From: Sphingobium sp. Z007
GTDB lineage: Bacteria; Pseudomonadota; Alphaproteobacteria; Sphingomonadales; Sphingomonadaceae
Assembly (NCBI RefSeq): GCF_900013425.1
Contig: NZ_FBXK01000001.1
Location: 408,001 to 472,000, forward strand
Reading direction: 5' to 3'
Length of the DNA stretch: 64,000 nt
Shown here piece after piece: positions 2,187 to 48,486 of this stretch. The notes beneath the pieces were generated by a model. It had not been told where the DNA came from, did no database searches, and saw only the letters and a program-made list of their open reading frames with translations. Positions within the stretch are counted from its first letter, which is position 1. The number at the start of each line of letters is the position of its first letter. A program made the translations under genes and the position numbers.

Positions 2187-2204
2187 AACCTAGTTATATA
2201 GGTT
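2187..2204. promoter_or_regulatory. Island operator motif, copy at porin promoter
   Basis: The sequence AACCTAGTTATATAGGTT is an inverted repeat (AACCTA and TAGGTT arms, six-base centre) 28 bases upstream of the porin start. It is the most symmetrical copy of a motif repeated across the island. Binding by a regulator is inferred from the recurrence and position. Confidence 0.7.
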
Positions 2205-2433
2205 CGCGCGTAACGAAGGCGCAGGCACGGCGCCAGCCCGTCGATCGGCTGTCGATCGCGTTTGCAGCGGGTTGCTGGGCGAAAAAGCGGTGGGTCGCAC
2301 AATTTTGCGATGAAAGGACGCATCGTCCGCCGCACATGCGCGTCAACTATATGACAAGACAGGTAGAAAGCGAATCATGATCGATGATGCGGACATGCGC
2401 CGCACCGCCGATCATGAACAATCGGCTGACCGC

Positions 2434-3177
2434 CTACCAGGTGCCGCCGTCCACCCGCAGCAGCGTGCCTGTGGTATAGCTGGACGCCGGACTGGCAAGG
2501 TAGAGGGCAGACGTCACCACTTCCTCCGGTCGACCCGGTCGCCCCAGCGCATTGCGCGCGGTTTCCCGCGCCTCGGGGCTCCAGGCGTTCGCGATGTCGG
2601 TCAGGAATGGCCCTGCTGACAATGTATTGACCCGTACCTTGGGCGCATATTCATGCGCCATCGACAGCGTCATCGCGTTGAGCGCCGCCTTGGACGATCC
2701 ATAGGGGATGATGGCGGGCAGGGGCATGACCCCGCCGGTCGACGACACATTGATGATGGTCCCGCCATCGCCGTCATACATGCGCTTGGCGATCTGGCTC
2801 GCCAGCCGGAACGGCCCTTTGAAATTGAGGTTCAGCACGCTGTCGAACAGCTTTTCCGTTACCTCATGGCTGGGCGCGGCAGGGCTCATGCCCGCATTGT
2901 TGACCAATATGTCGATCTTGCCGAACTGCGCATAGGCCGCCGCGATCAGAGCGTCGATGTCGTCCCATCGCCCGCAATGCGCGGCATGGGCCATCGCCCT
3001 GCGTCCCTTGGCCCGCACCAGCGCGGCCACTTCTTCGCACGCGTCCAGCTTGCGGCTGGCGATGATGACGTCCGCGCCATGATCGGCAAAGGCCAGCACC
3101 ATTTCCCGCCCCAGCCCCCGGCTGCCGCCCGTGACCAGCGCCACCTTGCCGCTCAGGTCGAACAGCGGATCGCTCAT
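2434..3177 (-). CDS. SDR family NAD(P)-dependent oxidoreductase
   Basis: This is a classical short-chain dehydrogenase of 247 residues. The dinucleotide-binding motif TGGSRGLG lies near residue 16, NNAG near 90, and the catalytic YGSSK motif near 155, so it should be an active keto/hydroxy oxidoreductase. It is the last gene of a four-gene minus-strand operon: its ATG overlaps the stop of the preceding acyl-CoA dehydrogenase by four bases (ATGA). In the levulinate pathway a similar SDR (LvaD) accompanies the kinase and dehydrogenase, so a role in hydroxyacyl-CoA or keto acid interconversion is plausible. The exact substrate is not evident. Confidence 0.92.
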   Translation of the reverse strand: MSDPLFDLSGKVALVTGGSRGLGREMVLAFADHGADVIIASRKLDACEEVAALVRAKGRRAMAHAAHCGRWDDIDALIAAAYAQFGKIDILVNNAGMSPAAPSHEVTEKLFDSVLNLNFKGPFRLASQIAKRMYDGDGGTIINVSSTGGVMPLPAIIPYGSSKAALNAMTLSMAHEYAPKVRVNTLSAGPFLTDIANAWSPEARETARNALGRPGRPEEVVTSALYLASPASSYTTGTLLRVDGGTW

Positions 3178-4487
3178 AGCGCCGGCTCCAGCGCGGGATC
3201 AGCCAGGACGGCGGCATATTTCGCCCGCACGGCGGCCAGTCGATCGGGAATATGCTCGCGCGGAAACAGTCCCTCGGATGGCGTCGCCTTGCGGGTATAG
3301 GCCTTGGCCACTTGCACCTTATGCACTTCGGTCGGACCGTCGGCCAGCGCCAGGCTGGGCAGGCTCATCCACATTGCCGACAGCACGGTTTCGTTGGTGA
3401 CGCCATAGCTGCCGTGAATCTGGATCGCGCGCTGGACCACGTCATGATAGATTTTGGCCATCTGCACCTTGCACATGGCGATCAGCGTGCGGGCCGCGCC
3501 GTGCGGTTGATTGTCGATCACCCAGGCGGTCTTGAGCACCAGCATCCGAAACTGCTCTATCTCGATCGCGCTGTCGGCGATCATGCCCTGGACGAACTGA
3601 TGGTCGTCCAACAACTTGCCCTGCGTGCGGCGGGACACGACGCGCTCCTGCATCATCTCGAACGCGCGCTGGCACCGCCCCACCGTGCGCATCGCATGAT
3701 GCACCCGTCCGCCGCCCAGCCGCGCCTGCGCAACCTTGAAGCCTTCGCCCGGCGCACCCAGCATCGCGTCGATCGGCACGCGGACCTGATTATAATGGAT
3801 ATAGCCATGGATGCCGTGGCTGTCGTCCAGCGGATCGTCGCCGATCGTGCCGACATTGCGGATAATCTCTATCCCCGGCGTTTCGGCGGGCACCACCAAC
3901 ATCGACATGCGGCTGTGCGCGGGCGCATCGGGATCGGTCACGGCCATGACGATCAGGAAGGAGGCATAGCGGGCGTTGGACGAAAACCATTTATGGCCCT
4001 CGATCACCCATTCGTCGCCGTCGCGGGTGGCCCGGCACACAAATTCCTTGGGGTCGGCCCCCGCCTGCGGCTCTGTCATGGAAAAGGTCGATACGATGTC
4101 GCCGTCCAGCAGGGGCTGGAGATAGCGCGCCTTCTGCGCCGGCGTGCCGAACATCGCCAATATCTCGGCATTGCCGGTATCGGGCGCGGCGGTGCCGAAT
4201 ATGGTCGGCGCCCAATAGGACCGGCCGATAATCTCGTTCATATAAGCGAGCTTCATCTGGCCATATCCCGCGCCGCCCAGATGCGGGTCCAGGTGGCACG
4301 CCCACAGGCCCTGCGCCTTCACCTGGTCCTGCAACGGCGCGATGATCGCGCGCGCCTGCGCATTGCCGGTGTCATAGGGGTCGCCATGATGGGGGAACAG
4401 CAGGTCGATCGGCTCGCACTCGGCCTTCACGAAGTCTAGCATCCAGTCCAGCTTGGCCTGAAACGCGGGGTCTATGGTAAAATCCAT
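3174..4487 (-). CDS. Acyl-CoA dehydrogenase, ACAD10/11-like
   Basis: This 437-residue flavoprotein has the full acyl-CoA dehydrogenase layout: an N-terminal helical domain, the FAD-binding SMTEPQAGAD segment near residue 135, the beta-domain with GHKWFSSNA, and a C-terminal helical domain containing QIHGSYGVTNE. Length and sequence style match the ACAD11/LvaC group rather than short-chain dehydrogenases. It follows a phosphotransferase gene by about 30 bases, as in the lva operon, where a 4-hydroxyacyl-CoA is phosphorylated and the dehydrogenase homologue then completes isomerisation to a 3-hydroxyacyl-CoA. That function is an inference from gene pairing. Its stop overlaps the start of the downstream SDR. 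Confidence 0.92.
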   Translation of the reverse strand: MDFTIDPAFQAKLDWMLDFVKAECEPIDLLFPHHGDPYDTGNAQARAIIAPLQDQVKAQGLWACHLDPHLGGAGYGQMKLAYMNEIIGRSYWAPTIFGTAAPDTGNAEILAMFGTPAQKARYLQPLLDGDIVSTFSMTEPQAGADPKEFVCRATRDGDEWVIEGHKWFSSNARYASFLIVMAVTDPDAPAHSRMSMLVVPAETPGIEIIRNVGTIGDDPLDDSHGIHGYIHYNQVRVPIDAMLGAPGEGFKVAQARLGGGRVHHAMRTVGRCQRAFEMMQERVVSRRTQGKLLDDHQFVQGMIADSAIEIEQFRMLVLKTAWVIDNQPHGAARTLIAMCKVQMAKIYHDVVQRAIQIHGSYGVTNETVLSAMWMSLPSLALADGPTEVHKVQVAKAYTRKATPSEGLFPREHIPDRLAAVRAKYAAVLADPALEPAL

Positions 4488-4518
4488 GGGGTTTCCTCTC
4501 CATTCTTATGGGAATGTG

Positions 4519-5586
4519 TCAGCCGATCCGGCGAATGAGGTCGGCCGCGTTGGCAAAGCTTTCGAGTACCAGGCGGGAGAAGAAAGTGCCGGTTTCCTTG
4601 GACAGAATGCCGGCCTGCGCCTGGGCGACCTTATATTCCAGGATGCACCCGCCCTTGAACATGGCCAGGATCGCATAATAGTCGAAATCGGCCATGTCGC
4701 GGCCCGTGCCAGCGGCATAATAGCGCGCCATTTCCTGCCGCGTGGGCCAATTCTCGCTATTGTAGAGCCGCTTAGAGGGCAGCACGTCCGGCGCATTTTC
4801 GTCGCGCATCGCATTGGTGAAGCTGGCAAGGTCGAGCAGCGGGTCGCCGATGGTCGATAATTCCCAGTCGATCAGTGCGTTGAGGCGACAGGGCGGCCCA
4901 TCGGCGAACAGCGCGTTGGGCGTGCCGACATCGCCATGGATGATGCCCGCCTGAAAGGTGGAGGGGATATTGGCACGCAGCCAGTCCCGCGTCAGTGCAT
5001 AGCCTGGCAACTCGCGGCCGGGATAATTGTAAAGCTGCTTGTAGCTCAGCAACTGTCCTTCCCAGCGATCCACCTGCCGTTCCAGATAATTGTCCGGCTT
5101 GCCGAAACCCTCCAGTCCGACCGCCTTGTAATCGACATTGGCCAGCGCCACCAGGCCATCGACCATCGCATAGGCGACGCTATATTCATAAGGCGGCTGG
5201 TCGAACGGCGCCTTGTGATAGATATGCTCGCCGATGATCGTCGCGGCCCATCCGTCGACCTTGTCCATCACATAGAAGGGCGCGCCGATCACGTCCGTAT
5301 CGGCGCAACTGCCCCGGCAGATCGGGTGCGGCACCGGCGTGCCGTTCAGCGCAGTCAGCACCCGCGCCTCGCGCAGCACGCTTTTCTCGCTGCCCGGCGG
5401 CGCGACTACCGGCGGACGCCGCAGCACCATTGTCTCGCAGCCGCGTTCCAGGGACAGGATGACGTTGCTGGTGCCGCCGTGAATCTTCCGCGCCGACAAT
5501 GGGCCGTCGCCCAGTTCCGGGATATGCGTATCCAGCCATGCCGTCAGTCTGGCGATGTCGACCAACCCGGTCAGATCGTCGCTCAT
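4519..5586 (-). CDS. Phosphotransferase family protein (ACAD10/11 kinase-domain type, LvaA-like)
   Basis: This is an aminoglycoside-phosphotransferase-fold kinase of 355 residues. The catalytic loop HGDVGTPN is at residues 217-224 and the metal-binding IDWE at 239-242, both intact. In vertebrate ACAD10/11 this domain is fused to an acyl-CoA dehydrogenase, and in bacteria the two are often adjacent genes, as here. The known chemistry is ATP-dependent phosphorylation of the hydroxyl group of a hydroxyacyl-CoA. The start ATG overlaps the marR stop by four bases, so the two are translationally coupled. It is not an antibiotic-resistance gene by context. Confidence 0.9.
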   Translation of the reverse strand: MSDDLTGLVDIARLTAWLDTHIPELGDGPLSARKIHGGTSNVILSLERGCETMVLRRPPVVAPPGSEKSVLREARVLTALNGTPVPHPICRGSCADTDVIGAPFYVMDKVDGWAATIIGEHIYHKAPFDQPPYEYSVAYAMVDGLVALANVDYKAVGLEGFGKPDNYLERQVDRWEGQLLSYKQLYNYPGRELPGYALTRDWLRANIPSTFQAGIIHGDVGTPNALFADGPPCRLNALIDWELSTIGDPLLDLASFTNAMRDENAPDVLPSKRLYNSENWPTRQEMARYYAAGTGRDMADFDYYAILAMFKGGCILEYKVAQAQAGILSKETGTFFSRLVLESFANAADLIRRIG

Positions 5587-6065
5587 GCGTCTTCGCCCAC
5601 GTCTTCGCGCTCAGCCATTGCGCGCAGATTTTGGCTCATGATCGCTCGGATGGCGCGAAGGTCCGCCACCGCGCGGGCGATCATGTCGGGGTCGATCCCC
5701 TCGGTCAGTTGCGCCGCGCGGCGCAGCCCCTCGGCATCGTCGCCTTCGCGCATCGCAATACCCTGCGCCGTGGGGATCAGCAGGCGCGCGCGCTTGTGAT
5801 CGGGATTGTCGCGCCATTCGATCAGCCCGCGCGTCGCCAGCATGTCGGCTGCCCGCTGAACCACCTGGCGCGGATGGCCCAGCGCCCGGCCGATCTGCGG
5901 CACGGTGGGCGGGCGCTGCGCATGGGTGACGGCGGTCAGCACGATATTCTCCACCTCGGTCAGGCCATGGGCTTCCCGGATGGAGCGGAAGGCCAGGTCG
6001 GTGCGCCCGCGCGATCGCGCGATCTCGTCGACCAGTTCGATAAAGATTTCTGCGGCTCTCTTCAT
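5583..6065 (-). CDS. MarR family transcriptional regulator
   Basis: This is a winged-helix regulator of 160 residues from the chosen ATG at 6065. An in-frame GTG at 6089 would add eight residues (MSLWNLCS) but lies inside a long palindrome that looks like the operator, so the later start is preferred, although its ribosome site is weak. The HTH/wing region spans TVPQIGRALGHPRQVVQRAADMLATRGLIEWRDNPDHKRA. It heads the operon with the kinase, ACAD and SDR genes, so it probably represses its own operon in response to a CoA ester or free acid. The ligand is not known. Confidence 0.88.
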   Translation of the reverse strand: MKRAAEIFIELVDEIARSRGRTDLAFRSIREAHGLTEVENIVLTAVTHAQRPPTVPQIGRALGHPRQVVQRAADMLATRGLIEWRDNPDHKRARLLIPTAQGIAMREGDDAEGLRRAAQLTEGIDPDMIARAVADLRAIRAIMSQNLRAMAEREDVGEDA

Positions 6066-6074
6066 GGAACATAA

Positions 6075-6252: not shown

Positions 6253-7506
6253 TCAGATCCGTTCGATGATGATCGCCGGTGCCATACCGCCCGCCGCGCA
6301 CATCGTCACCAGGCCATAGCGGCCGCCCGTCCGCTCCAGTTCGTCCAGCACCGTGCCGATCAGGATCGCGCCGGTCGCGCCGATCGGATGGCCCAGCGCG
6401 ATCGACCCGCCATTGACGTTCACCTTGGCGCGATCCAGGTCCAGGTCGCGGATGAATTTTTCGGCCACCACGGCAAAGGCCTCGTTAATCTCCCACAGGT
6501 CGATATCGTCCTTGGTCAGGCCCGCCTTGGCCAGCACCTTCTTGGCGGCGGGGACTGGTGCGTTCAGCATCAACGTCGCATCGTCGCCGACATTGGCGGT
6601 CGCCACGATGCGGGCGCGGGGTTTCAGGCCATGCGTCTCGGCATAGGCCTTGGATGCCAGCAGCACCGCCGCTGCGCCATCGACCACGCCCGACGAATTG
6701 CCGGCATGATGGAAATGTTCGATCGCCAGGTTGGGGAATTTCTGGTTGATCAGGCCGCGCGGCGTGTTGCCGTCTTCGTCGATCACCATGTCGGCGATCG
6801 CGGTGAAGGAAGGCTTGAGCGCAGCCAGGCCTTCGGCGGTCGTCTGCGGACGGGGAAATTCGTCCTTCGCCAGCACGACATTGCCCTCATCATCGATCAC
6901 CGGCACCACCGATTTGTCGAAACGGCCTTCGGCCATCGCGCGTTCGGCGCGCTTCTGGCTTTCCAGGCCCAGCGCATCGAGCGCTTCGCGGCTGATGCCC
7001 TCCATGCTGGCGATCGCGTCGCCGCACACGCCCTGGTGCGACTGGGGGTGGACAGACTGAAGGCGCGCATTGCCCGATCCCATGCCCAGCGGCATGATGC
7101 CCGCGGCCATTTCTTCCTGTGCCATGGTGGCGGTCAGCGACATCATCTCGGTGCCGCCCGCCACGATCAGGTCTTCCATGCCCGACATGATCTGCGCGGC
7201 GGCCAGGCTGACGGTGGTGATGCCGCCGCCGCAGAAACGGTCCAGCGTCATGCCGCTCGCCTTGGGATCATAGCCCGCGTCGAGCGCCGCCATCCGTCCC
7301 ATGTCGCCGCCCTGCTTGCCCTTCTGGGTGGATGTGGACCAGATCACATCGTCCACATCGGCGGTGTTCAGGTCGTTGCGCTCGGCGATCGCCTTGAGCA
7401 CGGTGGCGGCCAGATGCTGCGGGTGCATATGGGCGAGCGCGCCCTTTCCGACCTTGCCGATGCCACGCGGGGTGCGGACGGCGTCGATGATATAGGCTTC
7501 GGACAC
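6253..7506 (-). CDS. Acetyl-CoA C-acyltransferase (thiolase)
   Basis: This 417-residue thiolase should perform CoA-dependent cleavage of 3-ketoacyl-CoA. All active-site blocks are present: the nucleophile in TLDRFCGGG near residue 90, GHPIGATG with the catalytic histidine, and CAAGGM with the second cysteine near the C-terminus. The start chosen is GTG 7506, preceded by GGAGAAG six bases away and giving the typical N-terminus VSEAYIIDAVRTPRG. The longer upstream frame lacks thiolase homology. It is a monocistronic minus-strand gene ending in a strong hairpin and divergent from the thioesterase. A variant of the island motif lies between the two. Confidence 0.94.
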   Translation of the reverse strand: MSEAYIIDAVRTPRGIGKVGKGALAHMHPQHLAATVLKAIAERNDLNTADVDDVIWSTSTQKGKQGGDMGRMAALDAGYDPKASGMTLDRFCGGGITTVSLAAAQIMSGMEDLIVAGGTEMMSLTATMAQEEMAAGIMPLGMGSGNARLQSVHPQSHQGVCGDAIASMEGISREALDALGLESQKRAERAMAEGRFDKSVVPVIDDEGNVVLAKDEFPRPQTTAEGLAALKPSFTAIADMVIDEDGNTPRGLINQKFPNLAIEHFHHAGNSSGVVDGAAAVLLASKAYAETHGLKPRARIVATANVGDDATLMLNAPVPAAKKVLAKAGLTKDDIDLWEINEAFAVVAEKFIRDLDLDRAKVNVNGGSIALGHPIGATGAILIGTVLDELERTGGRYGLVTMCAAGGMAPAIIIERI

Positions 7507-7566: not shown

Positions 7567-7580
7567 CCTACTTAGTTGAT
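7567..7580. promoter_or_regulatory. Weak copy of island operator motif
   Basis: CCTACTTAGTTGAT lies between the divergent thiolase and thioesterase genes. It keeps the TTAGTTGA part of the motif but lacks the AT-rich TATATAAC arm, so it is a low-confidence copy. Confidence 0.35.
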
Positions 7581-7676
7581 GATGTGATGCAAAGCAAAAA
7601 TTTTGATGCCGCCGATATGTCATGTCATGGCGGGCGACAATTGACGATCGCCGACCGACCCTCGCTTTTAGCCACC

Positions 7677-8537
7677 ATGAGGAAGCCCGTGCCCAAAGCC
7701 CTGTTCGACCTGCGCGCCACCCATAATTCGCATCGCTTTCACCTGCCGGTGACGATGGATCTGTGCGTGGGGGTGCCCGACCGCCGCTTCCTGTTCGGCG
7801 GGGTCGGGCTGGCGGCGGCGATCGATGCGATGCAGCGGACCAGCGGTCGCCCGGTCATCTGGGCCACCGCCCATTATCTCTCCTTCGCCCGGCCCGGTTC
7901 TACGGTCGACTTGGATGTCTGGATCCCGGTCGCAGGCAACCAGACCAGCCAGGCGCAGGTGCTAGAACATATAGAAGACAGCAAGATCATCAGCGTGGTC
8001 GCCGCACTGGGCGCGCGCGACAGCGCCATTGCCGACCAGTGGGTGCCGATGCCGCAGGTCGCGCCGCCCGGCGATTGTCCCGTGGCGCGCAACTGGCGGG
8101 CGGGCGACGATGGCCTGCAAAGCCGGTTCGAAGTAAGGCTGGCCCATGGCCGCTATCCCGACGGCACGGCCAATGATGGGCGCAGCCAAGACGGTCGCGT
8201 CGCTTTCTGGATTCGCTCGACCGAAGGATTGCTGGCCGATCCGCTGTTGCTGGCGGTGGTGGCCGACTATATTTCGATGGCGATCGGCAATGCGATCGGC
8301 GCCTTTGCCGGGGGCAACAGCCTCGACAACACGATCCGTTATGCACGGGTTGAGCCGTCCGAATGGGTGTTGTGCGACATTCGGATCGAATCGGTCCATC
8401 ATGGCGTGGTCCATGGCGTGATGCACCTGTTTGAAGAAGGCGGCCTGTTGATGGCCACCGCCAGCCAGTCGCTGATCCTGCGTCATTATGACAGCCCGGC
8501 AGAGGTCGCGGCCCGCCGCGCCGGCATCGCTCCTTGA
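7677..8537 (+). CDS. Acyl-CoA thioesterase, TesB-like double hotdog
   Basis: This is a 286-residue protein with two hotdog halves in the manner of acyl-CoA thioesterase II. The C-terminal half has the family pattern SLDNTIRYAR with the aspartate, and TASQSLILR with the glutamine near residue 265; both positions are catalytic in TesB. It would release free acids from CoA esters. The ATG at 7677 is chosen, but an in-frame ATG at 7617 is possible because no strong ribosome site distinguishes them. A second, PaaI-type thioesterase follows about 130 bases downstream. Confidence 0.82.
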   Translation: MRKPVPKALFDLRATHNSHRFHLPVTMDLCVGVPDRRFLFGGVGLAAAIDAMQRTSGRPVIWATAHYLSFARPGSTVDLDVWIPVAGNQTSQAQVLEHIEDSKIISVVAALGARDSAIADQWVPMPQVAPPGDCPVARNWRAGDDGLQSRFEVRLAHGRYPDGTANDGRSQDGRVAFWIRSTEGLLADPLLLAVVADYISMAIGNAIGAFAGGNSLDNTIRYARVEPSEWVLCDIRIESVHHGVVHGVMHLFEEGGLLMATASQSLILRHYDSPAEVAARRAGIAP

Positions 8538-8669
8538 TATATTCGCATCGACCGCAGTCCTGCCATCGAAAGTCACTGGTGACGCGGCAAAAGCCCATGA
8601 CTTTGGATTGCTGTTGCACCACTTGTCTAACTACCTTATGTCGCAACGCAGCATAAGCAGGTGGGAACT

Positions 8670-9138: not shown

Positions 9139-9882
9139 TCACCGCTTGCCGAAAGTGCCGCCGACCCGGTTGGCGAAGTCCGGCCCGACACCGGGGCTGG
9201 CGACGATCTCATGGGCCAGGCCCGCGTCCAGGGTCATGCCATCGGACGCATTGAGCAGCGCCTTGTTGCCGCGATGGCTGTGCCAGGACAGCGCCATGAT
9301 GTCGCCCGTCAGGCGCGCCAGTTCCTCCTCGAACGCCGCGTCCGTTACGCACAGATTGGCCAGCCCCATCGCCAGCGCCTGCCGTCCGTCATAGGTGCGG
9401 CCCGTGAACATCATTTCGCGCGCCTTGTGCTGCCCCACCCGCCGGGGCAGCCGCTGCGTCATCCCCCATCCGGGCACCAGCGCCCATTTGCCGTGGGTGT
9501 CGGCAAAGCGCGCCGATTCCGCCGCCAGGATGATGTCGGCGGCCAGGACCAGTTCCAGCCCGCCGGTATAGCATGGCCCCTGCACCGCCGCGATGACAGG
9601 CTGGGGCAGGTTCGCCAACCGGGTGATGGTCGCGGCCTGGAAAAATCGGCGCGGCGGCTTCTGCTGCTTGCCAAGGTCCGCGCCCGCGCTGAAGACCGGC
9701 CCCGCCGCGCGCAGCACGACCGCGCCGACCCCGTCGGTTTCGCGTTCCAGATCGGCCAGGTGCGCGTCGAGCGCTGCGAACATATCGACATTGAGCGCGT
9801 TGCGTTTGTCGGGGCGGTTGAGCGTCAGCGTGGCGACGCCATCGGCATCGCTCCGCAGGATCAGCGTCTGGCTATCGGTCAT
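9139..9882 (-). CDS. Enoyl-CoA hydratase/isomerase family protein
   Basis: This is a 247-residue crotonase. It starts at ATG 9882 (MTDSQTLILRSDADGVATLTLNRP), which matches the usual family N-terminus; an ATG at 9918 would extend it by twelve residues. The oxyanion-hole segment FSAGADL and the first glutamate (in GLELVLAAD) are present. The second glutamate position reads ADTHGKWAL, with histidine where hydratases have glutamate. It may therefore be a hydratase with altered activity or an isomerase. It is divergent from an SDR, with a strong copy of the island operator between them. Confidence 0.88.
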   Translation of the reverse strand: MTDSQTLILRSDADGVATLTLNRPDKRNALNVDMFAALDAHLADLERETDGVGAVVLRAAGPVFSAGADLGKQQKPPRRFFQAATITRLANLPQPVIAAVQGPCYTGGLELVLAADIILAAESARFADTHGKWALVPGWGMTQRLPRRVGQHKAREMMFTGRTYDGRQALAMGLANLCVTDAAFEEELARLTGDIMALSWHSHRGNKALLNASDGMTLDAGLAHEIVASPGVGPDFANRVGGTFGKR

Positions 9883-9922
9883 CGGCGCACTATCCCGCCT
9901 TCGGACGCGCTTGTCCATCGCA

Positions 9923-9941
9923 GTTATATAACCTAGTTGAC
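9923..9941. promoter_or_regulatory. Island operator motif, crotonase/SDR divergent promoter
   Basis: GTTATATAACCTAGTTGAC contains the self-complementary GTTATATAAC followed by CTAGTT. It is 41 bases upstream of the minus-strand crotonase start and 55 bases upstream of the plus-strand SDR start, so one site could control both. Confidence 0.7.
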
Positions 9942-9995: not shown

Positions 9996-10781
9996 TTGGG
10001 CAAACTGGACGGACGGGTCGCCATCGTCACTGGCGGCGGACGCGGCATCGGGCGCGCCACGGCGGAACGCTTTGCACGTGAAGGCGCAACGGTCGTCGTC
10101 GCGACGCGATCCGCCGCGCCGGGGCAGGATGTGGTCGACGCCATCGCCGCAGCAGGCGGCACCGCCATTCTCGAAACCCTGGACATGGGCGATCGGCAGG
10201 CGGTCAGGGCGATGGTGATGCGCACGGGCGATCGGTTCGGACGGATCGACATCGTCCTGCACAATGCGGCCTTTCTGACCCCGGCCAGCCTGGCCGACAT
10301 GCCCGACGATGTGCTCGACGCGATGTTCGACGTCGGGGTCAAGGCCGCCTTCTGGCTGACCAAGGACGCGCTGCCCTGGCTGGAAAAAAGCCCGTGCGGG
10401 CGCATCCTCGTCACATCTTCGGTCGCGGGCAACCGCAAATCGCTGCCCGCCCGCGTCCATTATGGCGCGGCCAAGATGGCGGTGACCGGCTTCGTGCGCG
10501 GCGCGGCGCTGGAACTGGCGCGAAAGGGCATCACCGTCAACGCGATCGAACCGGGGCTGACCCGCACCCACGCGCTCGAATCGAACGCTACCGAAGAACA
10601 GATCGCCGCCATGGGTGCGCAGGTGCCGGTCGGACGCCCCGGCAAGCCGCAGGAAATCGCGGCGGGATTTCTGTTCCTGGCGTCGGATGAAGCCGACTAC
10701 ACGACCGGACAGACATTGACGATGGATGGCGGCGCATCGCTTGGCGACCCGCACGGCCTGCTCAGCGAACGGGAGGACTGA
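9996..10781 (+). CDS. SDR family oxidoreductase
   Basis: This short-chain dehydrogenase of 261 residues starts at TTG 9996, supported by GAGGAGA about eight bases upstream and the immediate MGKLDGRVAIVTGGGRGIG motif. The catalytic YGAAK is near residue 156 and NAA replaces the usual NAG. The C-terminus (TLTMDGGASLG) is typical. It is followed by an ACAD gene with five bases between them and then an HSD10-like SDR, so it belongs to a three-gene plus-strand operon carrying out dehydrogenation and hydroxyacyl-CoA oxidation. Confidence 0.9.
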   Translation: MGKLDGRVAIVTGGGRGIGRATAERFAREGATVVVATRSAAPGQDVVDAIAAAGGTAILETLDMGDRQAVRAMVMRTGDRFGRIDIVLHNAAFLTPASLADMPDDVLDAMFDVGVKAAFWLTKDALPWLEKSPCGRILVTSSVAGNRKSLPARVHYGAAKMAVTGFVRGAALELARKGITVNAIEPGLTRTHALESNATEEQIAAMGAQVPVGRPGKPQEIAAGFLFLASDEADYTTGQTLTMDGGASLGDPHGLLSERED

Positions 10782-13828: not shown

Positions 13829-13854
13829 ATGCCCGCTCCTTATTCGATGGTATT

Positions 13855-13872
13855 CCAGGTTATACAGGTTGC
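13855..13872. promoter_or_regulatory. Island operator motif, aldo/keto reductase promoter
   Basis: On the minus strand this reads GCAACCTGTATAACCTGG, two AACCT-like half sites. It is 27 bases upstream of the aldo/keto reductase start and about 90 upstream of the divergent 2-hydroxyacid dehydrogenase. Confidence 0.55.
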
Positions 13873-16689: not shown

Positions 16690-16721
16690 CCCGCAGACCG
16701 CTTTGCCCGATACTAGACCAA

Positions 16722-16739
16722 GCTATATAACCTATTCAA
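16722..16739. promoter_or_regulatory. Island operator motif, SDR-MaoC promoter
   Basis: GCTATATAACCTATTCAA matches the TATATAACCTA core. It is 33 bases upstream of the SDR start. The adjoining TACTAGACCAA at 16711-16721 is identical over eleven bases to half of the TetR-type inverted repeat at 56.8 kb. Confidence 0.6.
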
Positions 16740-16965: not shown

Positions 16966-17101
16966 TGGCTTCGCCCTAGATGCCCGATCCGTTCGCAGCA
17001 AAGTGCACCTGGCTAACTATGTTGCTGTTCTCCGGTTGCGCGGCGCGGCGGATCAGGGCAAAGACCGATGCAAACAGGATTTGCAAATCGAGGAGCCTTG
17101 C

Positions 17102-20556: not shown

Positions 20557-20574
20557 ATATATAACCTAGGCAAC
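20557..20574. promoter_or_regulatory. Island operator motif, MFS promoter
   Basis: ATATATAACCTAGGCAAC lies 21 bases upstream of the MFS GTG start. Its location inside the longest open frame helps to reject the earlier start. Confidence 0.65.
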
Positions 20575-20599
20575 CATGTTTGACGGGCAGGGACAAGAA

Positions 20600-21766: not shown

Positions 21767-22545
21767 TTTTCCTTTCCCGTGGGCCATCGCCAAAGGCCCG
21801 AGTTCCTGACATTATCGTACTTCGTATCCAGCATCGGCAACAACGGTCGGCGTACCTGTCGACGCTGTGCCATGGCCCGGCCGCAGCGGTCTTCCTGTCG
21901 GACGGGTGCACATGCCTGGGATGTCCCTGCATCTGCCACGCATCCTTATACGCCGCGCCGGAACGACTGTCTCGCAAAAAAAGATACCTCTTTTGCTATA
22001 TCCCGTTGCTGCACCTTCTATGCGCGGTACGTCCGGTCGGCGCGAATTTGCGCGGCCCAACATGTCGCAGTGTGCGATTCGTTCCGTAGCTATGTCGATC
22101 ATGGGCGTGGCGACGCTCACGCCCCCAAATTCAAGGCGATCTCGCATGGCGCAGAAATACTCTTTGGACTCAAGGCGCAAGCAAAAGTGGCTGACATGAT
22201 ATTGTCGTCAAAGGGGCTGAAAAGCGCACATTGCCCGATCCGGCGGCCGATGCGACTCTTCCCTCCCGCGTCCTTTGCGCGGGCATGTAGCAATGTGCCC
22301 CGATGCGCCCCAATGCGCCATGGCGACCCCAGATATGAGCGCAGAGCAGGGGCGAGTGGTCTGACATGATAAGTAGGTTAACTAAGATGACCAGTTCATG
22401 TGGGAAAAATACCATTGGGAGCCTTTTTGGATAAAAGAGATGCCTATATAGTTGCGTTCGCGGTGACCGCTGTGTAATTGGGCCTTGTACGAACCCCAAA
22501 GAGGTTCTTTAGAGGTTCTTTTTTACAACAGGGAGGTTGTCGGAT
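21767..22545. other. Long non-coding region between amidohydrolase and TonB receptor
   Basis: About 780 bases show no credible gene. The open frames in both strands lack start signals, compositional support or family resemblance. The right part holds a motif variant TAGGTTAACTAAG (22374-22386), a second AT-rich site GCCTATATAGTTGC (22442-22455), and a direct repeat AGAGGTTCTTT at 22500-22510 and 22511-22521, 25 bases before the receptor start. An 11-base repeat CTGACATGATA occurs near 22191 and 22361. The region could be a regulatory leader or the remains of a lost gene. Confidence 0.6.
22374..22386. promoter_or_regulatory. Island operator variant upstream of TonB receptor
   Basis: TAGGTTAACTAAG, read on the other strand as CTTAGTTAACCTA, combines the AACCTA half with a CTTAGTT half. 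It is 160 bases upstream of the start, farther than most copies. Confidence 0.45.
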
Positions 22546-25074: not shown

Positions 25075-25159
25075 CCCGCTTGTCGAAACGCCTCGCTTTT
25101 GTAATGAGCGTCCTACCCAGCCGGATTGCGACATGCGCAACGGGACCGGCAAGGACGGG

Positions 25160-25960
25160 ATGCTCATAATGACCAATGATCTTGACTTGAATGAAGCGGT
25201 GGGACTGGGCGGCTCCGTCGTTTCGCGAACCGTTCGGCAATTGACCCAGTTCAGCCTCCAGGCGCAGGACGGCGATTATCTCGGCTCCGAAGCCGAACTG
25301 CTCGAACGCATGAGCATCAGCCGCCCGACCCTGCGTCAGGCGGCCAAGGTGGTGGAAAGCGACTGCCTTCTGTCGGTTCGGCGCGGCGTCAATGGCGGCT
25401 TCTACGCCACCCGGCCCAGCGCGCGCCATGTGGTCCAGTCTCCGGCCCTGTGGCTGCGCCTCCAGTCCGCGACGCTCGACCAGATGAACCGGGCGAGTAT
25501 GCTCATCTATCCTACCGCAGGCGCAGAAGCGGCCAAATGCACCGACCCCCGGTTGATCGCCGAACTGACCGCGTTCCGCGCCGCGATCGACGAACGGGAA
25601 GCGCGGGGCGAAAGCCAGCGTGAAACGCTGGACGCCGAAATCGCCTTTTCCCAACTGATCGCGAATATGAGCGGCGATCCCGTGCTCACGCTGTTCATCG
25701 GCATCAGCTACACGTTCGGCCTGCTGGAGAGGGAATATCGCTTCTATCGCCGGTCGCCGCAACGGCGCCAGCGCTGGCTGTCGCTGCAACGCAGCTATTG
25801 CGACGCCATTTTGTCGGGCGACAGCGACATCGCCATGTTGATCGGCAAGCGGCGGGGACAGCAGGTGGAAAGCTGGATCGCCGAGGACAAGGCGGCAACG
25901 CAGCAGGACGGCAGCACCGACCCGGCGAAAACAGGGGAAAAGGATGATGGCGCAACTTGA
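25160..25960 (+). CDS. GntR/FadR-type transcriptional regulator
   Basis: This 266-residue regulator has an N-terminal winged helix: GSEAELLERMSISRPTLRQA is the recognition region and LLSVRRGVNGGFYATRP the wing. A helical ligand domain of FCD style follows. Proteins of this group respond to acyl-CoAs or organic acids. ATG 25160 has AAGGA just upstream; ATG 25169 is an alternative. The gene overlaps the following hydrolase-flavin reductase by 17 bases. It is one of four regulators in the window and is a reasonable, unproven candidate for recognising the island-wide operator, because it sits centrally and next to a TonB receptor. Confidence 0.88.
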   Translation: MLIMTNDLDLNEAVGLGGSVVSRTVRQLTQFSLQAQDGDYLGSEAELLERMSISRPTLRQAAKVVESDCLLSVRRGVNGGFYATRPSARHVVQSPALWLRLQSATLDQMNRASMLIYPTAGAEAAKCTDPRLIAELTAFRAAIDEREARGESQRETLDAEIAFSQLIANMSGDPVLTLFIGISYTFGLLEREYRFYRRSPQRRQRWLSLQRSYCDAILSGDSDIAMLIGKRRGQQVESWIAEDKAATQQDGSTDPAKTGEKDDGAT

Positions 25961-27176: not shown

Positions 27177-27197
27177 CCTAGTACATATATCACTAGG
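27177..27197. promoter_or_regulatory. Island operator motif with dyad, upstream of thiolase-DUF35 operon
   Basis: CCTAGT and ACTAGG form inverted arms around ACATATATC. The minus strand reads AACCTAGTGATATATG, close to the common form. It is about 150 bases upstream of the operon start. A second dyad, ATGGGTA/TACCCAT, spans 27202-27239. Confidence 0.6.
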
Positions 27198-27349
27198 TTT
27201 TATGGGTAGGCATTTTTTGGGGTGACAAGAGGTACCCATTTAGGCACAAGGTCAGGACAATAATCGCTGCCCGTGATTCATCAGGCAGGACGGAACCCGG
27301 ATGGGCACATGCCCTGATCGGGAACTGGCATCGAAAGAGCAGGAACGGG

Positions 27350-34909: not shown

Positions 34910-34927
34910 CTATCATACCTAGTTAGC
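34910..34927. promoter_or_regulatory. Island operator motif, MFS/SDR divergent promoter
   Basis: CTATCATACCTAGTTAGC carries the ACCTAGTT core. It is 33 bases upstream of the plus-strand SDR GTG start and 90 bases upstream of the divergent MFS gene. Confidence 0.6.
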
Positions 34928-34959
34928 GATGAAGGCATAATCATGAGGAGGCGGATAGC

Positions 34960-39277: not shown

Positions 39278-39295
39278 GCTAGTTGGCTTAGTTGC
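39278..39295. promoter_or_regulatory. Island operator variant at second TonB receptor promoter
   Basis: GCTAGTTGGCTTAGTTGC contains two CTAGTT/CTTAGTT half sites in direct orientation, 46 bases upstream of the receptor start. Confidence 0.45.
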
Positions 39296-39435
39296 ACTTG
39301 TTGGTCAATAGGGCTGCGGCAACAAACTAGGCGCTGTTGTTTTGACAACACTTTCGTTGAGCAAGCTCAGCAATTCGGACTACGTTGGCGCAGCTCGCCC
39401 GCACCGACAGAAGAATGCCATTGCGTGAGAGACAT

Positions 39436-39450
39436 GGTTAGCTTAGTTGG
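39436..39450. promoter_or_regulatory. Island operator variant at ACAD pair promoter
   Basis: GGTTAGCTTAGTTGG repeats the CTTAGTTG half seen at 39278-39295 and lies 41 bases upstream of the ACAD start at 39491. Confidence 0.45.
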
Positions 39451-39490: not shown

Positions 39491-40612
39491 ATGAACTTTG
39501 ACCTGTCCGACGAACAGAAAATGCTCGCGGAGCAGGCGCGCGGGCTGCTGGGCGAGCGATCATCGTCCGACCGGCTGCGCGAATTGATCGATGCGGGGAA
39601 GGAATGGGACGAGTCGCTCTGGCGCGAAATTGCCGAGATGGGCTTTCTGGGCGCTGCCCTGCCGGAACAATTTGGCGGGTTGGGCATGACCGAACTGGAC
39701 CTGGGCGTCATCAGCGAAGAATTGGGCCGGGCTAATACGGCACTGCCCTTCTTCTCCTCCATCGTCCTTGCCGCCGACGCGATCAACCTGGCCGGGTCCG
39801 GCGCGCAAAAGGAAAAATGGCTGCCCCGGCTTGCCAGCGGCGATGCCATCGGCACCCTCGCCTATGCCGAGGGGCCGGCCGGGTGGACCGGCAACGCGGT
39901 CAAGACGCACTATGCCGCAGGCGCAGTGACGGGCACTAAGACTCCCGTGGCCGATGCCGGTATCGCGACGGTCGCGGTCGTGTTGGTCAAGGCCGCCGAT
40001 ACATTCATGCTGTCGCTGGTAGAACTCGACCAGCCCGGTGTTACCCGCACCCGCCTCAACAGTTTCGACCAGTTGCGCGCCCATTACAGCCTGGCGTTCG
40101 ATGCAGTTCCTGCCGAATTGCTGGAAAATGCGCTGACCCAGGACGTGATCGATCGGCTATTTGATCGTGCGGCGGTCCAGGCCGCGTTCGAAGCGGTCGG
40201 CGGCGCGGACGCCTGTCTGGTGATGGCGCGCGACTATGCCATGGATCGCCAGATTTTCGGTCGTCCGCTGTCTAGCTATCAGGCGATCAAGCACAAGCTT
40301 GCGAATATTGCGGTTGGCGTCGAACTGGCGCGGTCGAACGCCTATTTTGGCGCCTGGGCGGCACTGAACGATCCCGATGCTCTGCCGGTTGCCGCGGCAT
40401 CGGCCCGGTTGATGGCCATCGACGCCTTCGAAAACGCCGCGCGAGAAAATATCCAGGTGCATGGCGGCATTGGCTACACGTTCGAGGCGAACTGCCATTT
40501 CTACTATCGGCGCGAAAGGACGCTCGCGCTCAGCCTTGGCGGCCGCGAATCCTGGGCAGATCGGCTCATCAAGCATCTTCCCGGATCGCAGTTCAAGGCG
40601 GAGGCGGCATAA
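39491..40612 (+). CDS. Acyl-CoA dehydrogenase, small partner of tandem pair 1
   Basis: This 373-residue ACAD-family protein has the N-terminal helical domain (MNFDLSDEQKMLAEQARGLLGE) and the C-terminal QVHGGIGYTFEANCHFYYRR, but the middle FAD-binding segment is weak (LAYAEGPAGWTGNAV) compared with the TEPxAGSD of its partner. It is followed, with one shared base (TAATG), by a 400-residue ACAD. In steroid side-chain degradation such unequal neighbours form alpha2-beta2 heterotetramers in which only one subunit type supplies full FAD and catalytic residues. A heteromer is inferred here too. Confidence 0.9.
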   Translation: MNFDLSDEQKMLAEQARGLLGERSSSDRLRELIDAGKEWDESLWREIAEMGFLGAALPEQFGGLGMTELDLGVISEELGRANTALPFFSSIVLAADAINLAGSGAQKEKWLPRLASGDAIGTLAYAEGPAGWTGNAVKTHYAAGAVTGTKTPVADAGIATVAVVLVKAADTFMLSLVELDQPGVTRTRLNSFDQLRAHYSLAFDAVPAELLENALTQDVIDRLFDRAAVQAAFEAVGGADACLVMARDYAMDRQIFGRPLSSYQAIKHKLANIAVGVELARSNAYFGAWAALNDPDALPVAAASARLMAIDAFENAARENIQVHGGIGYTFEANCHFYYRRERTLALSLGGRESWADRLIKHLPGSQFKAEAA

Positions 40613-41862: not shown

Positions 41863-41880
41863 ATAACCTAGTTATATAAG
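41863..41880. promoter_or_regulatory. Island operator motif, ligase operon promoter
   Basis: ATAACCTAGTTATATAAG is nearly identical to the copy at 2187-2204 over AACCTAGTTATATA. It is 55 bases upstream of the ligase start. Confidence 0.68.
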
Positions 41881-41934
41881 AAGCGTAGACATCATTGCGA
41901 CATGAGTCTGCATGAGTATTTTCGGGGGTTTGCA

Positions 41935-43455
41935 ATGTCCGTTTTTTCCGACCTGCTCAATGGCGTACTGACGATAGACCCGTCTGCGGACGTCATCGAT
42001 TATCAGGGCAGATGGTATAGCTGGCAGGAGTTGGGCGACACTATCGGTGCGATCCGATCGCTGCTTGCTACCCTGGGTCTGGGTCAGGACGCGCGCGTGG
42101 GCGTGATGGTGAAGAACCGTCCGTCGCCCTTCGCCGCGGTGCTCACGGCAGTGGCCGACGGCATGACCATGGTGTCGATCAATCCGCTGTTGCCCGACCA
42201 CCGGCTGATCAAGGATCTGGACGGGCTGGACCTGCCCGTCGTCATCGCGGAACAGGCAGACCTTGACCGTCCGGGCATATTGGATGTCCTCAAGGCCGCT
42301 GGAACGGCCGTCATCGAACTGCCTGGCATATTGGAGGGCGCATATTTTCGTCCCGGCTATGAACATTTTGGCGACACTGTAAAGGTGACTGAGCCGGGCA
42401 TCATCGTCGAAATGCTGACCAGCGGCACGACCGGCAAGCCCAAGCGGGTTCCGCTCCAGCGCGCCGCCTTCGACCAGAGTTTCGAAGGGGCGCTCAGCTA
42501 TGAAAAGGATCGCAAGCCCGGCGAAGCGGCGATCCTGCGGCCCGGTATCACCATCCTATCCAACCCGATGACCCATATCGGCGGGCTGTGGGGCGCGCTG
42601 ACCTGTATCGCGGGCGGACGCAAGGCTTGCCTGCTGGAAAAATTTTCGGTCGCCAGTTGGCATGATGCGATCAAGCGCCACAAGCCCAAGGTCGCAGGCG
42701 CGGTGCCCGCCGGCCTCCGCATGATTCTGGACGCCAACATCCCCAAAGAGGATTTGGCCAGCCTGGTCGCGATCCGCACGGGCGCGGCCCCGCTCGATTT
42801 CGAAGTCACCAAGGAGTTTATGGAGCGCTACGCCCTGCCGGTGCTCCAAAATTACGGCGCGACCGAATTTTCCGGCGCGGTGGCCGGATGGGCACTCAAA
42901 GATTTCCACCAGTTCTGGGACAAGAAGCCGGGCAGCGTCGGGCGTTTCCAGCCCGGCGTTAAGGGTAGGGTGGTCGATCCAGACACAGGCGAGGAAAAGT
43001 CCGTTGGCGAAGAAGGCGTGCTGGAGATGAAGGCGGCGCAATTCGGTCTGGGCGACGTCTGGTTGCGCACGACTGATCGCGCGATCATCGATACGGACGG
43101 CTTTCTGTTCATCAAGGGACGCGCCGATCTCGCCATAATTCGTGGCGGGTTCAAGGTGCATCCCGACGACATTAACAAGACCTATGAACTGCATCCCGCG
43201 ATCCGGGAGGCCGTTACCGTGGGCATGGAAGATCGCCGCCTGGGCGCCGTGCCGATGACGGCGATCATCCTCAAGGATGGTGCCGACGCGCCGTCCGAAG
43301 CGGAACTGAAGGACTATGGCCGGGACCATCTGATGCCATATCAGGTGCCGGTAAAATTCCTGATCGTCGATGACGTGCCGCGCACCCCATCAATGAAACC
43401 CGCGCTGCCGCAGGTGCGCGACCTCTTCAAGTCCGACGCCGCCGACGCGGCCTGA
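41935..43455 (+). CDS. Acyl-CoA synthetase (AMP-dependent ligase)
   Basis: This adenylate-forming ligase has 506 residues. The phosphate loop MLTSGTTGKPKRV near residue 160 is complete, NYGATE-like ALPVLQNYGATEF follows, RTTDR replaces TGD, and the C-terminal TPSMKPALPQ supplies the lysine. It should convert a carboxylic acid to its CoA ester with ATP. ATG 41935 is preferred because GGGGG lies six bases upstream; ATG 41902 would add eleven residues. It heads an operon with MaoC, crotonase, ACAD and crotonase genes, a self-contained activation and beta-oxidation set. Confidence 0.9.
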   Translation: MSVFSDLLNGVLTIDPSADVIDYQGRWYSWQELGDTIGAIRSLLATLGLGQDARVGVMVKNRPSPFAAVLTAVADGMTMVSINPLLPDHRLIKDLDGLDLPVVIAEQADLDRPGILDVLKAAGTAVIELPGILEGAYFRPGYEHFGDTVKVTEPGIIVEMLTSGTTGKPKRVPLQRAAFDQSFEGALSYEKDRKPGEAAILRPGITILSNPMTHIGGLWGALTCIAGGRKACLLEKFSVASWHDAIKRHKPKVAGAVPAGLRMILDANIPKEDLASLVAIRTGAAPLDFEVTKEFMERYALPVLQNYGATEFSGAVAGWALKDFHQFWDKKPGSVGRFQPGVKGRVVDPDTGEEKSVGEEGVLEMKAAQFGLGDVWLRTTDRAIIDTDGFLFIKGRADLAIIRGGFKVHPDDINKTYELHPAIREAVTVGMEDRRLGAVPMTAIILKDGADAPSEAELKDYGRDHLMPYQVPVKFLIVDDVPRTPSMKPALPQVRDLFKSDAADAA

Positions 43456-45572: not shown

Positions 45573-45602
45573 TAGCGCCTGACTTTCGATCTGGAGATCA
45601 TC

Positions 45603-46745: not shown

Positions 46746-46760
46746 TAGCGGGGGTTTGCC

Positions 46761-47546
46761 ATGTCGGAACAGCGTGTCCTCATGACCGTCACGGACGGGG
46801 TGGCGGACGTCCGCCTCAACCGGCCGGACAAATTGAACGCCATTGACGAGGCGCAGTTTCGCGCAATCGCCGACACGATCGCGAATATCGCGGCGCGCCG
46901 CGATATTCGATGTGTCGTCCTATCGGGCGAGGGCAGGGCGTTCAGCGTCGGTGTCGACCTAGACAGTCTCGCGAATGCGCCTGCCTTGCGCGATTTGATG
47001 CCGCGGACCCATGGCGCGGCCAATCTTTTCCAGCAATGCGCCTGGGGGTGGCGTACATTGCCAGTGCCGGTCATTGCAGCGGTGCATGGCTATGCCTTTG
47101 GGGCAGGATGCCAGATGATGCTGGGGGCCGACATCCGCTTCTGTGCGCCGGACACCGACATCTCGGTGATGGAAATGCGCTGGGGCCTGATCCCTGACGT
47201 CGCCGGCACGGCATTGCTGCGCGGGTTGGTCCGCGAGGACAGACTCCGGGAAATCATTTTCACCGGACGTCGCTACACGGGCACGGAGGCATTCGAGATC
47301 GGGCTGGTCACACATCAGGCGGCGGCCCCCCATGCCGAGGCGATGGCGATGGCGCGCGCAATTGCCGATTCCAGTCCCGATGCCATGCGCGCGGCCAAGC
47401 GATTGCTCAACCTCCCATGGGCAATCAGCGATGGCGACCTGCTGCTGGCCGAATCACGGGAGCAGGAAGTGCTGTTAGCGTCGGACAATCATGCCGAGGC
47501 TGTGCGTGCCGGTCGTGACAAGCGCGCGCCCATTTTCAAGAACTAG
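46761..47546 (+). CDS. Enoyl-CoA hydratase/isomerase family protein
   Basis: This 261-residue crotonase ends the ligase operon. The second catalytic glutamate is present in ISVMEMRWGLIPDVAG, while the first position reads GAGCQMMLGAD with glutamine. The pattern MxMxWGLIPD defines a known but functionally vague subgroup. Water addition with one glutamate is possible but unproved. Its 3' end overlaps the convergent alpha/beta hydrolase by eleven bases, so no terminator separates them. Confidence 0.9.
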   Translation: MSEQRVLMTVTDGVADVRLNRPDKLNAIDEAQFRAIADTIANIAARRDIRCVVLSGEGRAFSVGVDLDSLANAPALRDLMPRTHGAANLFQQCAWGWRTLPVPVIAAVHGYAFGAGCQMMLGADIRFCAPDTDISVMEMRWGLIPDVAGTALLRGLVREDRLREIIFTGRRYTGTEAFEIGLVTHQAAAPHAEAMAMARAIADSSPDAMRAAKRLLNLPWAISDGDLLLAESREQEVLLASDNHAEAVRAGRDKRAPIFKN

Positions 47547-48414
47547 GGCGCACTGGCTTATTGGCCAAGATCCCGCTGAGCGCGGCGATCAACGCCAGCG
47601 GTTGCTCGATCATGATGTGATGATTGCAGGCGGGTATGGCAACGGGCGTTCCGGCATGGGGCGCGATCTTGAGCGCCAATGCCACGCGATCGGCCGTCAT
47701 CACGTTGCTCTCGGTCCCGTAAATGACGTCCACGGGTAATTGCAGGCCGAACAGTTCGTCGCGATAGCGTTCGGCATTGAGCGAGACTGCGGCTTGAGGA
47801 TCGAACTTCCAACTCCATCCCGCTGCCGTCTCTACCACGCCATGGCGTGCGATATGATCGACGATAGCAGGCACGGGCTCCTTGACCTCCGGGATCAGCC
47901 GAAAGCGGGCTAACGCGCTATCCAGATCGGGATATAGCCGCAGCGGCTGCGTGGGGATCTGGTGCGCCTGTTCTTCGACGGTGGGGATGCCCGCATCGAT
48001 CATGATGAGGCGATGTACGCGCTGCGGCGCGCGCTTGGCGGCCAATATCCCGCCCATCGTCCCGAAGCTGTGCGTGACCAGGGTGAAAGGATCAAAACCG
48101 CAGGCTGCCGCCACGGCCAATATCTCCCGCCCATTCTGCACCCGGCTATAGTTTTCGCGCCGATCGCTATCGCCCATGCCGGACAGGTCGAGGGCGACCA
48201 CCCGATAACGGTCCGTGAACGAAGGCGCGATATGATCCCACCATCGCGCATGTGCGCGAAACCCATGCACCAATATCAGGCCCGGCAGCGATGCCACGTC
48301 CATGTTCCAGCCGCGGCAAGCGATGCGCGCGCCTTCCACCGGCACCGAAAATATGCGCGGGATATGCGCCCATTGAGCCGCCAGCCAATCGTCCAGCGCT
48401 GTTTCGCGCGACAT
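47536..48414 (-). CDS. Alpha/beta hydrolase
   Basis: This 292-residue serine hydrolase has LILVHGFRAHARWWD as oxyanion strand, nucleophile serine in VTHSFGTMGG near residue 115 and a histidine near the C-terminus in ACNHHIMIEQP. DLSGMGDSD is a typical strand. It could hydrolyse an ester, lactone or ring-cleavage product. GAGGAAT precedes the ATG. It is divergent from a crotonase-SDR-crotonase operon, with a clear operator copy between the two starts. Confidence 0.88.
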   Translation of the reverse strand: MSRETALDDWLAAQWAHIPRIFSVPVEGARIACRGWNMDVASLPGLILVHGFRAHARWWDHIAPSFTDRYRVVALDLSGMGDSDRRENYSRVQNGREILAVAAACGFDPFTLVTHSFGTMGGILAAKRAPQRVHRLIMIDAGIPTVEEQAHQIPTQPLRLYPDLDSALARFRLIPEVKEPVPAIVDHIARHGVVETAAGWSWKFDPQAAVSLNAERYRDELFGLQLPVDVIYGTESNVMTADRVALALKIAPHAGTPVAIPACNHHIMIEQPLALIAALSGILANKPVRPSS

Positions 48415-48469
48415 GCATTATTCCTCTTTCGCCGGGCATCGCATGATCGCAAACACGAATATGCGGTGC

Positions 48470-48486
48470 TATACAACCTAGTAAAC
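48470..48486. promoter_or_regulatory. Island operator motif, hydrolase/crotonase divergent promoter
   Basis: TATACAACCTAGTAAAC lies 56 bases upstream of the minus-strand hydrolase and about 107 upstream of the plus-strand crotonase. The following ACTTGGTT may be a second half site. Confidence 0.65.

Follow-up and report, generated by a model that had tools for sequence, protein, structure and literature searches.

A recurrent palindrome in the promoters of a Sphingobium catabolic island and its candidate GntR/FCD regulator

The window analyzed here is a stretch of 64,000 nucleotides from Sphingobium sp. Z007 (contig NZ_FBXK01000001.1, positions 408,001 to 472,000; G000:C1:408001-472000 in a genome totaling 4.94 Mb), and it covers part of a large catabolic gene island. 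Its intergenic DNA carries an AT-rich, imperfectly palindromic site that recurs upstream of genes for coenzyme A (CoA) ester metabolism and uptake. Judged from sequence, this site is very probably the operator of a GntR/FCD transcription factor, g066, whose gene (G000:C1:341754-342536, +) lies in the same island, at a distance of 66 kb to the left of the window. Gene, start-codon and operon calls are those of the present analysis.

A palindromic site in intergenic DNA of the island

A matrix of 26 positions was derived by expectation maximization (EM) from the intergenic DNA of the island, taken from the neighboring 166 kb of G000. Its consensus, AACCTAGTTAnnTAkGTT, is an 18-base imperfect palindrome that approaches AACnTAGTTAACTAnGTT when read as a dyad. 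The outer AC and GT boxes are well conserved (A 0.93, C 0.88, G 0.88, T 0.67), and the inner boxes read TAGT/ACTA, with a strong left GT and a weak right AC.

A recurrent operator-like motif had been claimed in a preliminary description of the window, and it proved to be real. The core AACCTAGTT was matched 11 times in the window with at most one mismatch, against 1.84 matches expected and a count that none of 100 shuffles reached, and TATATAAC was found six times against 0.17 expected. At 15 bits or more, the EM matrix detected 12 sites in the window, and the reversed window had none. Because the matrix was learned on the island's own intergenic DNA, there is some circularity in these counts, and a held-out test is therefore weightier. 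The held-out matrix rested on 67 sites from other genomes, with G000, G016 and G039 excluded, the sites themselves having been chosen with the first matrix. At 14 bits or more, it returned exactly the nine positions previously listed as strong copies (14.3-26.4 bits), and nothing in the reversed window. The six weak copies fared unevenly: those at 7567, 22374, 39436 and 52084 were retained (14.8-18.1 bits), the one at 39278 is doubtful (11.5 bits), and the one at 22442 was dropped (3.4 bits with the held-out matrix). A 21.9-bit site at 17006-17023 had been overlooked. A match at 8617 (14.3 bits) was discarded, as its counterpart in the related genome G016 scores 3.7 bits. The candidate operator sites are listed below with their scores in bits, the second value being that of the equivalent G016 promoter.

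2187..2204, +: site AACCTAGTTATATAGGTT, upstream of a minus-strand open reading frame (ORF; about 1110-2000/2159); 24.3, G016 20.0
7569..7586, +: weaker site, between thiolase (6253-7506, -) and thioesterase (7689-8537, +) genes; 14.8, G016 15.7
9921..9938, -: between enoyl-CoA hydratase (9139-9882, -) and short-chain dehydrogenase/reductase (SDR; 9996-10781, +) genes; 16.3, G016 23.7
13853..13870, +: between aldo/keto reductase (12785-13828, -) and 2-hydroxyacid dehydrogenase (13963-14901, +) genes; 19.3, G016 21.5
16720..16737, -: upstream of an SDR gene (15817-16689, -); 14.3, G016 18.0
17006..17023, +: newly found, upstream of a FadJ-like gene (17102-19147, +); 21.9, G016 21.2
20563..20580, +: upstream of a major facilitator superfamily (MFS) transporter gene (19196-20446, -); 22.0, G016 22.8
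22371..22388, +: upstream of a TonB-dependent receptor gene (22579-25035, +); 17.6, G016 21.8
27182..27199, -: upstream of a thiolase-like/ChsH2-like gene pair (27350-28567 and 28567-29004, +); 23.8, G016 23.8
34916..34933, +: between MFS transporter (33423-34820, -) and SDR (34960-35841, +) genes; 22.9, G016 21.6
39285..39302, +: doubtful weak site, upstream of a TonB-dependent receptor gene (36827-39166, -); 11.5, G016 14.6
39431..39448, -: upstream of an acyl-CoA dehydrogenase gene (39491-40612, +); 18.1, G016 20.5
41865..41882, +: site AACCTAGTTATATAAGAA, upstream of an acyl-CoA ligase-like gene (41902-43455, +); 26.4, G016 20.8
48475..48492, +: between alpha/beta hydrolase (47536-48414, -) and enoyl-CoA hydratase (48593-49375, +) genes; 22.0, G016 19.0
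52067..52084, -: weaker site, between zinc alcohol dehydrogenase (50984-51991, -) and NUDIX (52126-52914, +) genes; 15.3, G016 17.6

The sites continue well to the left of the window. Those of at least 13 bits span G000:C1:315,979 to about 460,089 (144 kb; 28 sites), and the previously given extent of 46 kb was thus too small. In the whole 4.94-Mb genome, ACNTAGTTANMTAKGTT with at most two mismatches was matched 19 times, always within C1:315,982-456,492 (141 kb), and the reversed pattern eight times; as palindromes are matched twice, the 19 matches represent 13 distinct sites. A scan of 262 kb of C1 at 15 bits or more gave 25 sites, all of them intergenic and located in C1:310-462k, compared with two in ten 20-kb control stretches and two in the reversed 262 kb. 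At 17 bits or more, 22 sites stood against none in either control, and at 13 bits or more there were 29 matches (28 intergenic, 28 in the island) against five in the control stretches and two in the reversed sequence. Intergenic DNA makes up 8.4% of the island. The matrix counts again involve some circularity, the pattern count over the whole genome less so. The matches are concentrated upstream of genes in the island instead of being spread genome-wide, which agrees with the earlier proposal of one site type and one regulon; matches equally common across the genome had been named there as a refuting outcome.

Synteny of the island is preserved in G016 and G039. In G047 the island is reshuffled, with protein identities of 50-85%, and the sites precede relatives of the same genes in altered order. 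Intergenic DNA could be paired with G016 for 15 of the 28 sites, and 14 of these retain a site of at least 16.8 bits, the one at 8617 being the exception. Site columns are better conserved than their flanks (85-87% versus 58-60%): identical columns amounted to 457 of 540 (85%) in sites versus 3173 of 5435 (58%) in flanks for G016 and G039 together, and to 233 of 270 versus 1478 of 2568 for G016 alone. The copies are short, AT-rich and numerous, as would be expected of a dispersed repeat element or of an artefact of promoter composition. Such an origin has, however, a practically negligible probability, given that recurrence is limited to 26 positions, that site columns are kept while the flanks diverge, and that the copies are restricted to one island of the genome and lacking from the reversed window.

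Parts of related islands were found on a 5.23-Mb contig (G016:C1), a 1.17-Mb contig (G000:C1) and an 850-kb plasmid (NZ_CP032828.1), so that the kind of replicon differs between relatives. When 24 kb of the window served as query in a nucleotide search of plasmids, only short matches were obtained (five records). To the left of the window, the island contains an ORF of 1004 amino acids and a resolvase-like ORF of 186 amino acids (G000:C1:336838-340544), by eye a Tn3-type transposase and resolvase, situated between two SDR gene fragments.

The GntR/FCD protein g066 and competing regulators

The protein g066 carries a GntR domain (PF00392, 59.2 bits; cut-off 27) and an FCD domain (PF07729, 71.1 bits; cut-off 24.3). 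Among the regulator genes of G000 that were scored, its upstream region has the best site (19.6 bits), followed by those of g099 (10.4), g129 (3.2), g137 (1.2), g058 (0.5), g036 (0.1), g088 (-3.0) and g153 (-8.0). In a sample of 80 relatives, 49 belonging to the genus and 31 outside it, g066 was found at E <= 1e-40 in exactly the four genomes G000, G016, G039 and G047, which have 14, 12, 11 and 3 motif matches, respectively. The remaining members of the genus show one match each in G001 and G010 and none in the other 43. This pattern extends to a sample of 298 genomes of the family, in which g066 was matched at E <= 1e-40 in 18 genomes and an orthologue was defined by at least 51% identity, so that four matches of 39-43% (G110, G330, G334 and G342) were scored as negatives. 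All 14 genomes with an orthologue match the motif with one mismatch or none, versus three of the 284 others (Fisher test, 1.9e-21 by species and 9e-8 by genus). The value by genus is the fairer one because the genomes are related.

The association also holds at the level of the gene. When 1.5 kb on each side of g066 genes was scanned (L123, at a contig edge, was left out), 18 of 19 loci with at least 47% identity had a site of at least 15 bits, compared with none of the seven loci at 43% or below. In at least four compact loci (L092, L093, L094 and L102), an acyl-CoA dehydrogenase gene with a site in its promoter precedes the g066 gene, and a site is located between g065 and g066 in G000, G016, G321 and a metagenome-assembled genome of Parasphingopyxis (L137). 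In a tree, the 16 pseudomonadotal g066-type proteins group together in a clade (support 98/95) that excludes the 47% copy of G135 and g036; the branches of the outgroup are long.

Several observations weigh against the assignment to g066. The co-occurrence is not phylogenetically independent, as six of the 14 genomes belong to one genus and four to another. Three genomes without g066 (G111, G242 and G354) have a match with at most one mismatch, and the best site near the second g066-like gene of G135 (47%) scores 11.8 bits. The inner AC box of the right half-site is weak in the G000 matrix. Moreover, 13 of the 31 genomes outside the genus carry one to four matches with at most two mismatches and no g066; these correspond to the level expected from composition, since the counts of the reversed pattern, 1 to 19, were mostly equal or higher. 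Finally, a MarR-like ORF (by eye) adjoins a second site-bearing locus in two genomes, L104 (13048-13485) in G367 and L105 (6690-7127) in G300, in both cases beside a thiolase-SDR-hydratase locus.

Two regulator genes of the window itself compete with g066:

25133..25960, +: g153, GntR/FCD protein (Pfam FCD and a weak GntR match)
5583..6065, -: g137, MarR-family protein (Pfam MarR_2; upstream region 1.2 bits)

The first of these is the GntR protein at 25160 that had originally been suggested as the regulator. The suggested family is supported, the best candidate, g066, being a GntR/FCD protein, but the particular protein is not. It is a GntR/FCD protein of the island and has relatives in seven of 17 site-bearing genomes (G000, G016, G039, G047, G135, G321 and G372), yet no match at E <= 1e-25 was obtained in ten genomes that keep g066 and the sites, its own upstream region scores -8.0 bits at best, and G008, a genome without motif matches, contains a weak relative (34%). 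Binding of the motif by g153 is hence very improbable. The same low probability applies to g137 or another regulator of the island. AT-rich palindromes are also bound by MarR and TetR proteins, and the sites fit the general shape of such operators; g137 is retained alongside the sites in G047 and G321, and the MarR-like ORFs at the second loci point in the same direction. Against this, g137 lacks a site upstream and is absent at E <= 1e-15 from 12 of the 17 site-bearing genomes tested, including ten that keep g066 and sites. The cross-genome protein searches were made with g066, g137 and g153 and left aside the TetR candidates, g129, g036, g034, g041 and g186, so that TetR proteins are excluded only indirectly.

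A further alternative, by which two or more related GntR/FCD proteins, such as g066 and its paralogues, share the operator, appears unlikely, though not to the degree of the preceding ones. Additional g066-type copies exist in G047 (two; 61 and 60%), G321 (three; 73, 57 and 56%) and G135 (two; 54 and 47%), and g036, a 40% paralogue, is encoded near the island in G000. However, the g61 and g97 genomes carry a single copy at E <= 1e-40, and g036 has no site upstream (0.1 bits). The motif is therefore best read as the operator of a g066-type protein.

Predicted regulon and relation to described systems

In the proposed model, some 28 promoters spread across about 144 kb would each be recognized by a g066 dimer through the palindrome, close to the start codon. 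Under an operon rule, the control by g066 would extend to roughly 87 of the 142 island genes and would take in the divergent promoter beside its own gene. The predicted regulon comprises CoA ligases, acyl-CoA dehydrogenases, hydratases, SDRs, thiolases, ChsH2-like pairs, hydrolases and uptake systems of the MFS and TonB types; thioesterase, AMP-binding ligase and NUDIX genes and the upstream region of an amidohydrolase gene also follow sites. Bound g066 would block transcription until a CoA ester or acid derived from the substrate occupies the FCD domain. The position of the sites and the analogy with the FCD repressor AlkR make g066 a likely repressor, and its release would most likely be brought about by a substrate-derived CoA thioester or acid. 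The preliminary description had placed most copies 20-60 bases before a start codon, which is true of about half of them (8 of 15 sites in the window and 15 of 28 in the island; median 49 nt), and several between divergent genes, which is borne out by 15 of the 28 island sites being at divergent promoters. The more distant sites (88-200 nt) would suit an activator. This mode of action is nevertheless unlikely, considering the 15 sites within 20-60 nt of a start codon, the 15 that serve divergent promoters, and AlkR, which is reported to exert repression from positions -27 to -40 relative to the ATG (PMC12042122).

AlkR is reported to be released by long-chain acyl-CoA (PMC12042122). Like g066, AlkR is an FCD-type GntR protein, and it acts on a hydrocarbon catabolic gene through a palindrome near the ATG, much as is predicted for g066; it differs in its site, ATTGTCAGACAAT, and in the few alkane genes reported instead of an entire island. 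Parallels also exist with the FadR subfamily, in which, according to a regulon survey, regulators combine GntR and FCD domains and recognize AT-rich palindromes of TKGT/ACMA boxes, 3 or 2 nt apart, with extra boxes 7-12 nt from the center (Suvorova et al., 2015, PMC4494728). The 2-nt spacing from GT to AC found here is thus one of the two described there, and a motif derived de novo from actinobacterial loci (see below) likewise shows the GT and AC boxes (..taGT-ta-ACta.., palindrome imposed). A site adjacent to the regulator gene, a trait of the subfamily, is present in the 18 of 19 loci mentioned above. The middle base of the box, G or T in that survey (PMC4494728), is mostly A in the present motif (TAGT). 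With 0.66 A and 0.21 G in the G000 matrix, this base departs from the TKGT/ACMA consensus, which is not a strict rule, and the outer AC/GT boxes, about 7 nt from the center, are conserved at least as well as the inner ones. At the position aligned with what we take to be Arg35 of FadR, all 28 sequences compared carry Gly, Ala, Leu or Ser, and none carries Arg. An Arg at position 28 of the helix-turn-helix was tied to G/C in the box in the same survey (PMC4494728), and TAGT instead of TGGT is in keeping with the lack of Arg at the aligned position.

Among solved structures, NanR of E. coli (6on4) is the best sequence match to the g066 profile (E 3.3e-23). In contrast to the palindrome described here, the site of NanR is reported to consist of direct GGTATA repeats (PMC4494728; PMC8012715). 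Against the NanR model, g066 scores 94.3 bits, below the cut-off of 260. Within the FCD domain, H164 and H238 are present in all 28 sequences. None of these carries Asp four positions ahead of H164, and Ser, Ala or Thr occupies position 215. These correspond to what we presume to be the Asp/His metal-ligand positions of FCD proteins. The control of a large lipid catabolic gene set by one type of repressor recalls KstR and KstR2 in mycobacterial cholesterol catabolism, which are TetR proteins, unlike the GntR protein g066 (PMC3068626).

The statement of the preliminary description that no regulator with this site had been described agrees with searches of the open-licence literature in PubMed Central, which found no such description. 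Two long palindromes gave no text match there, and the matches to the 12-mer CTAGTTAACTAG included none titled as bacterial operator work. A proteobacterial survey of 33 regulators includes the GntR proteins BioR, FadR, GlcC, HutC, HypR, LldR, NagQ and PdhR, none of which is assigned genes of this kind (PMC5343134). For a related steroid degrader, a 2026 paper proposes AraC and TetR regulators and does not use the word GntR (PMC12882949). The present case is a new regulon and operator within a well-known regulator family. Assigned master regulators are rare for large catabolic islands of sphingomonads, and a review of bile-acid degraders calls the knowledge of their regulation limited (PMC8399759). 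The pair of regulator and operator provides a handle for finding the inducer, and the pathway could be delimited by its promoters and not by gene family.

Pfam and NCBIfam searches of the island proteins returned CoA-thioester, ChsH2-like and AtuA families and named no pathway. Steroid or terpenoid side chains as the substrate are a guess, prompted by the ChsH2-like and AtuA domains. The AtuA-family protein (acyclic terpene utilization; 600 amino acids) is encoded in the island at G000:C1:375565-377367 (L014:5565-7367). Within the window, a single ORF at 25944-27167 joins an alpha/beta hydrolase fold to a following flavin reductase domain, which is an unusual fusion.

Site and candidate regulator in other phyla

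A search of named genomes yielded at least 80 loci with relatives of g066, of which L147 and L151 repeat G348 and G135, respectively. Among the matches listed, 16 loci are non-actinobacterial (L137-L152), and twelve of these contain matches of at least 16 bits, with no match in the reversed sequence. Similarly, 20 of the 62 actinobacterial loci reach 14 bits, among the matches listed, in the 400 bp before the gene, compared with 1 of 1240 shuffles, 1 of 62 reversed regions and 3 of 280 regions elsewhere in the same loci. When EM was run de novo on 49 non-redundant actinobacterial upstream regions, with the palindrome imposed and no input from the window, it converged on caActtaGTtaACtaagTtg with a log-likelihood of 216.7, versus 34-43 in five shuffles. 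The likeness of this motif to the sphingomonad one weighs more than the likelihood, because most of the actinobacterial loci are mycobacterial and related. Applied to 262 kb of G000, the actinobacterial matrix placed 14 of its 15 matches inside the island and gave three in the reversed sequence. Not all loci conform: L142, L149 and L150 have no match, L152 has one versus two in its control, and without the imposed palindrome the actinobacterial EM converges on a mycobacterial variant, T.CAAcTcagTaAACcATgT.

From these results it may tentatively be proposed, as a possibility falling short of probable, that g066 and the palindrome are a pair whose code has been kept across Alphaproteobacteria and Actinobacteria and which has spread onto many unrelated operons. 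The proposal further includes that the 144-kb island, found on differing kinds of replicon, would form one regulon, and that the site would represent a distinct class of FadR-subfamily operator, in which the outer boxes dominate and the inner ones read TAGT and whose regulator senses a class of CoA esters not described so far. Site scanning could serve to locate the same pathway in other phyla. A paper on the operator of mycobacterial mce2R (Vindal et al., 2008; cited in PMC2867952) may describe a related site.

The actinobacterial g066-type genes have thiolase, hydratase, acyl-CoA dehydrogenase and nitronate monooxygenase genes as neighbors. At L167, L176 and L188 (Mycolicibacterium and Nocardia), g066-type genes are located within about 10 kb of genes that, by eye, resemble members of mce operons.

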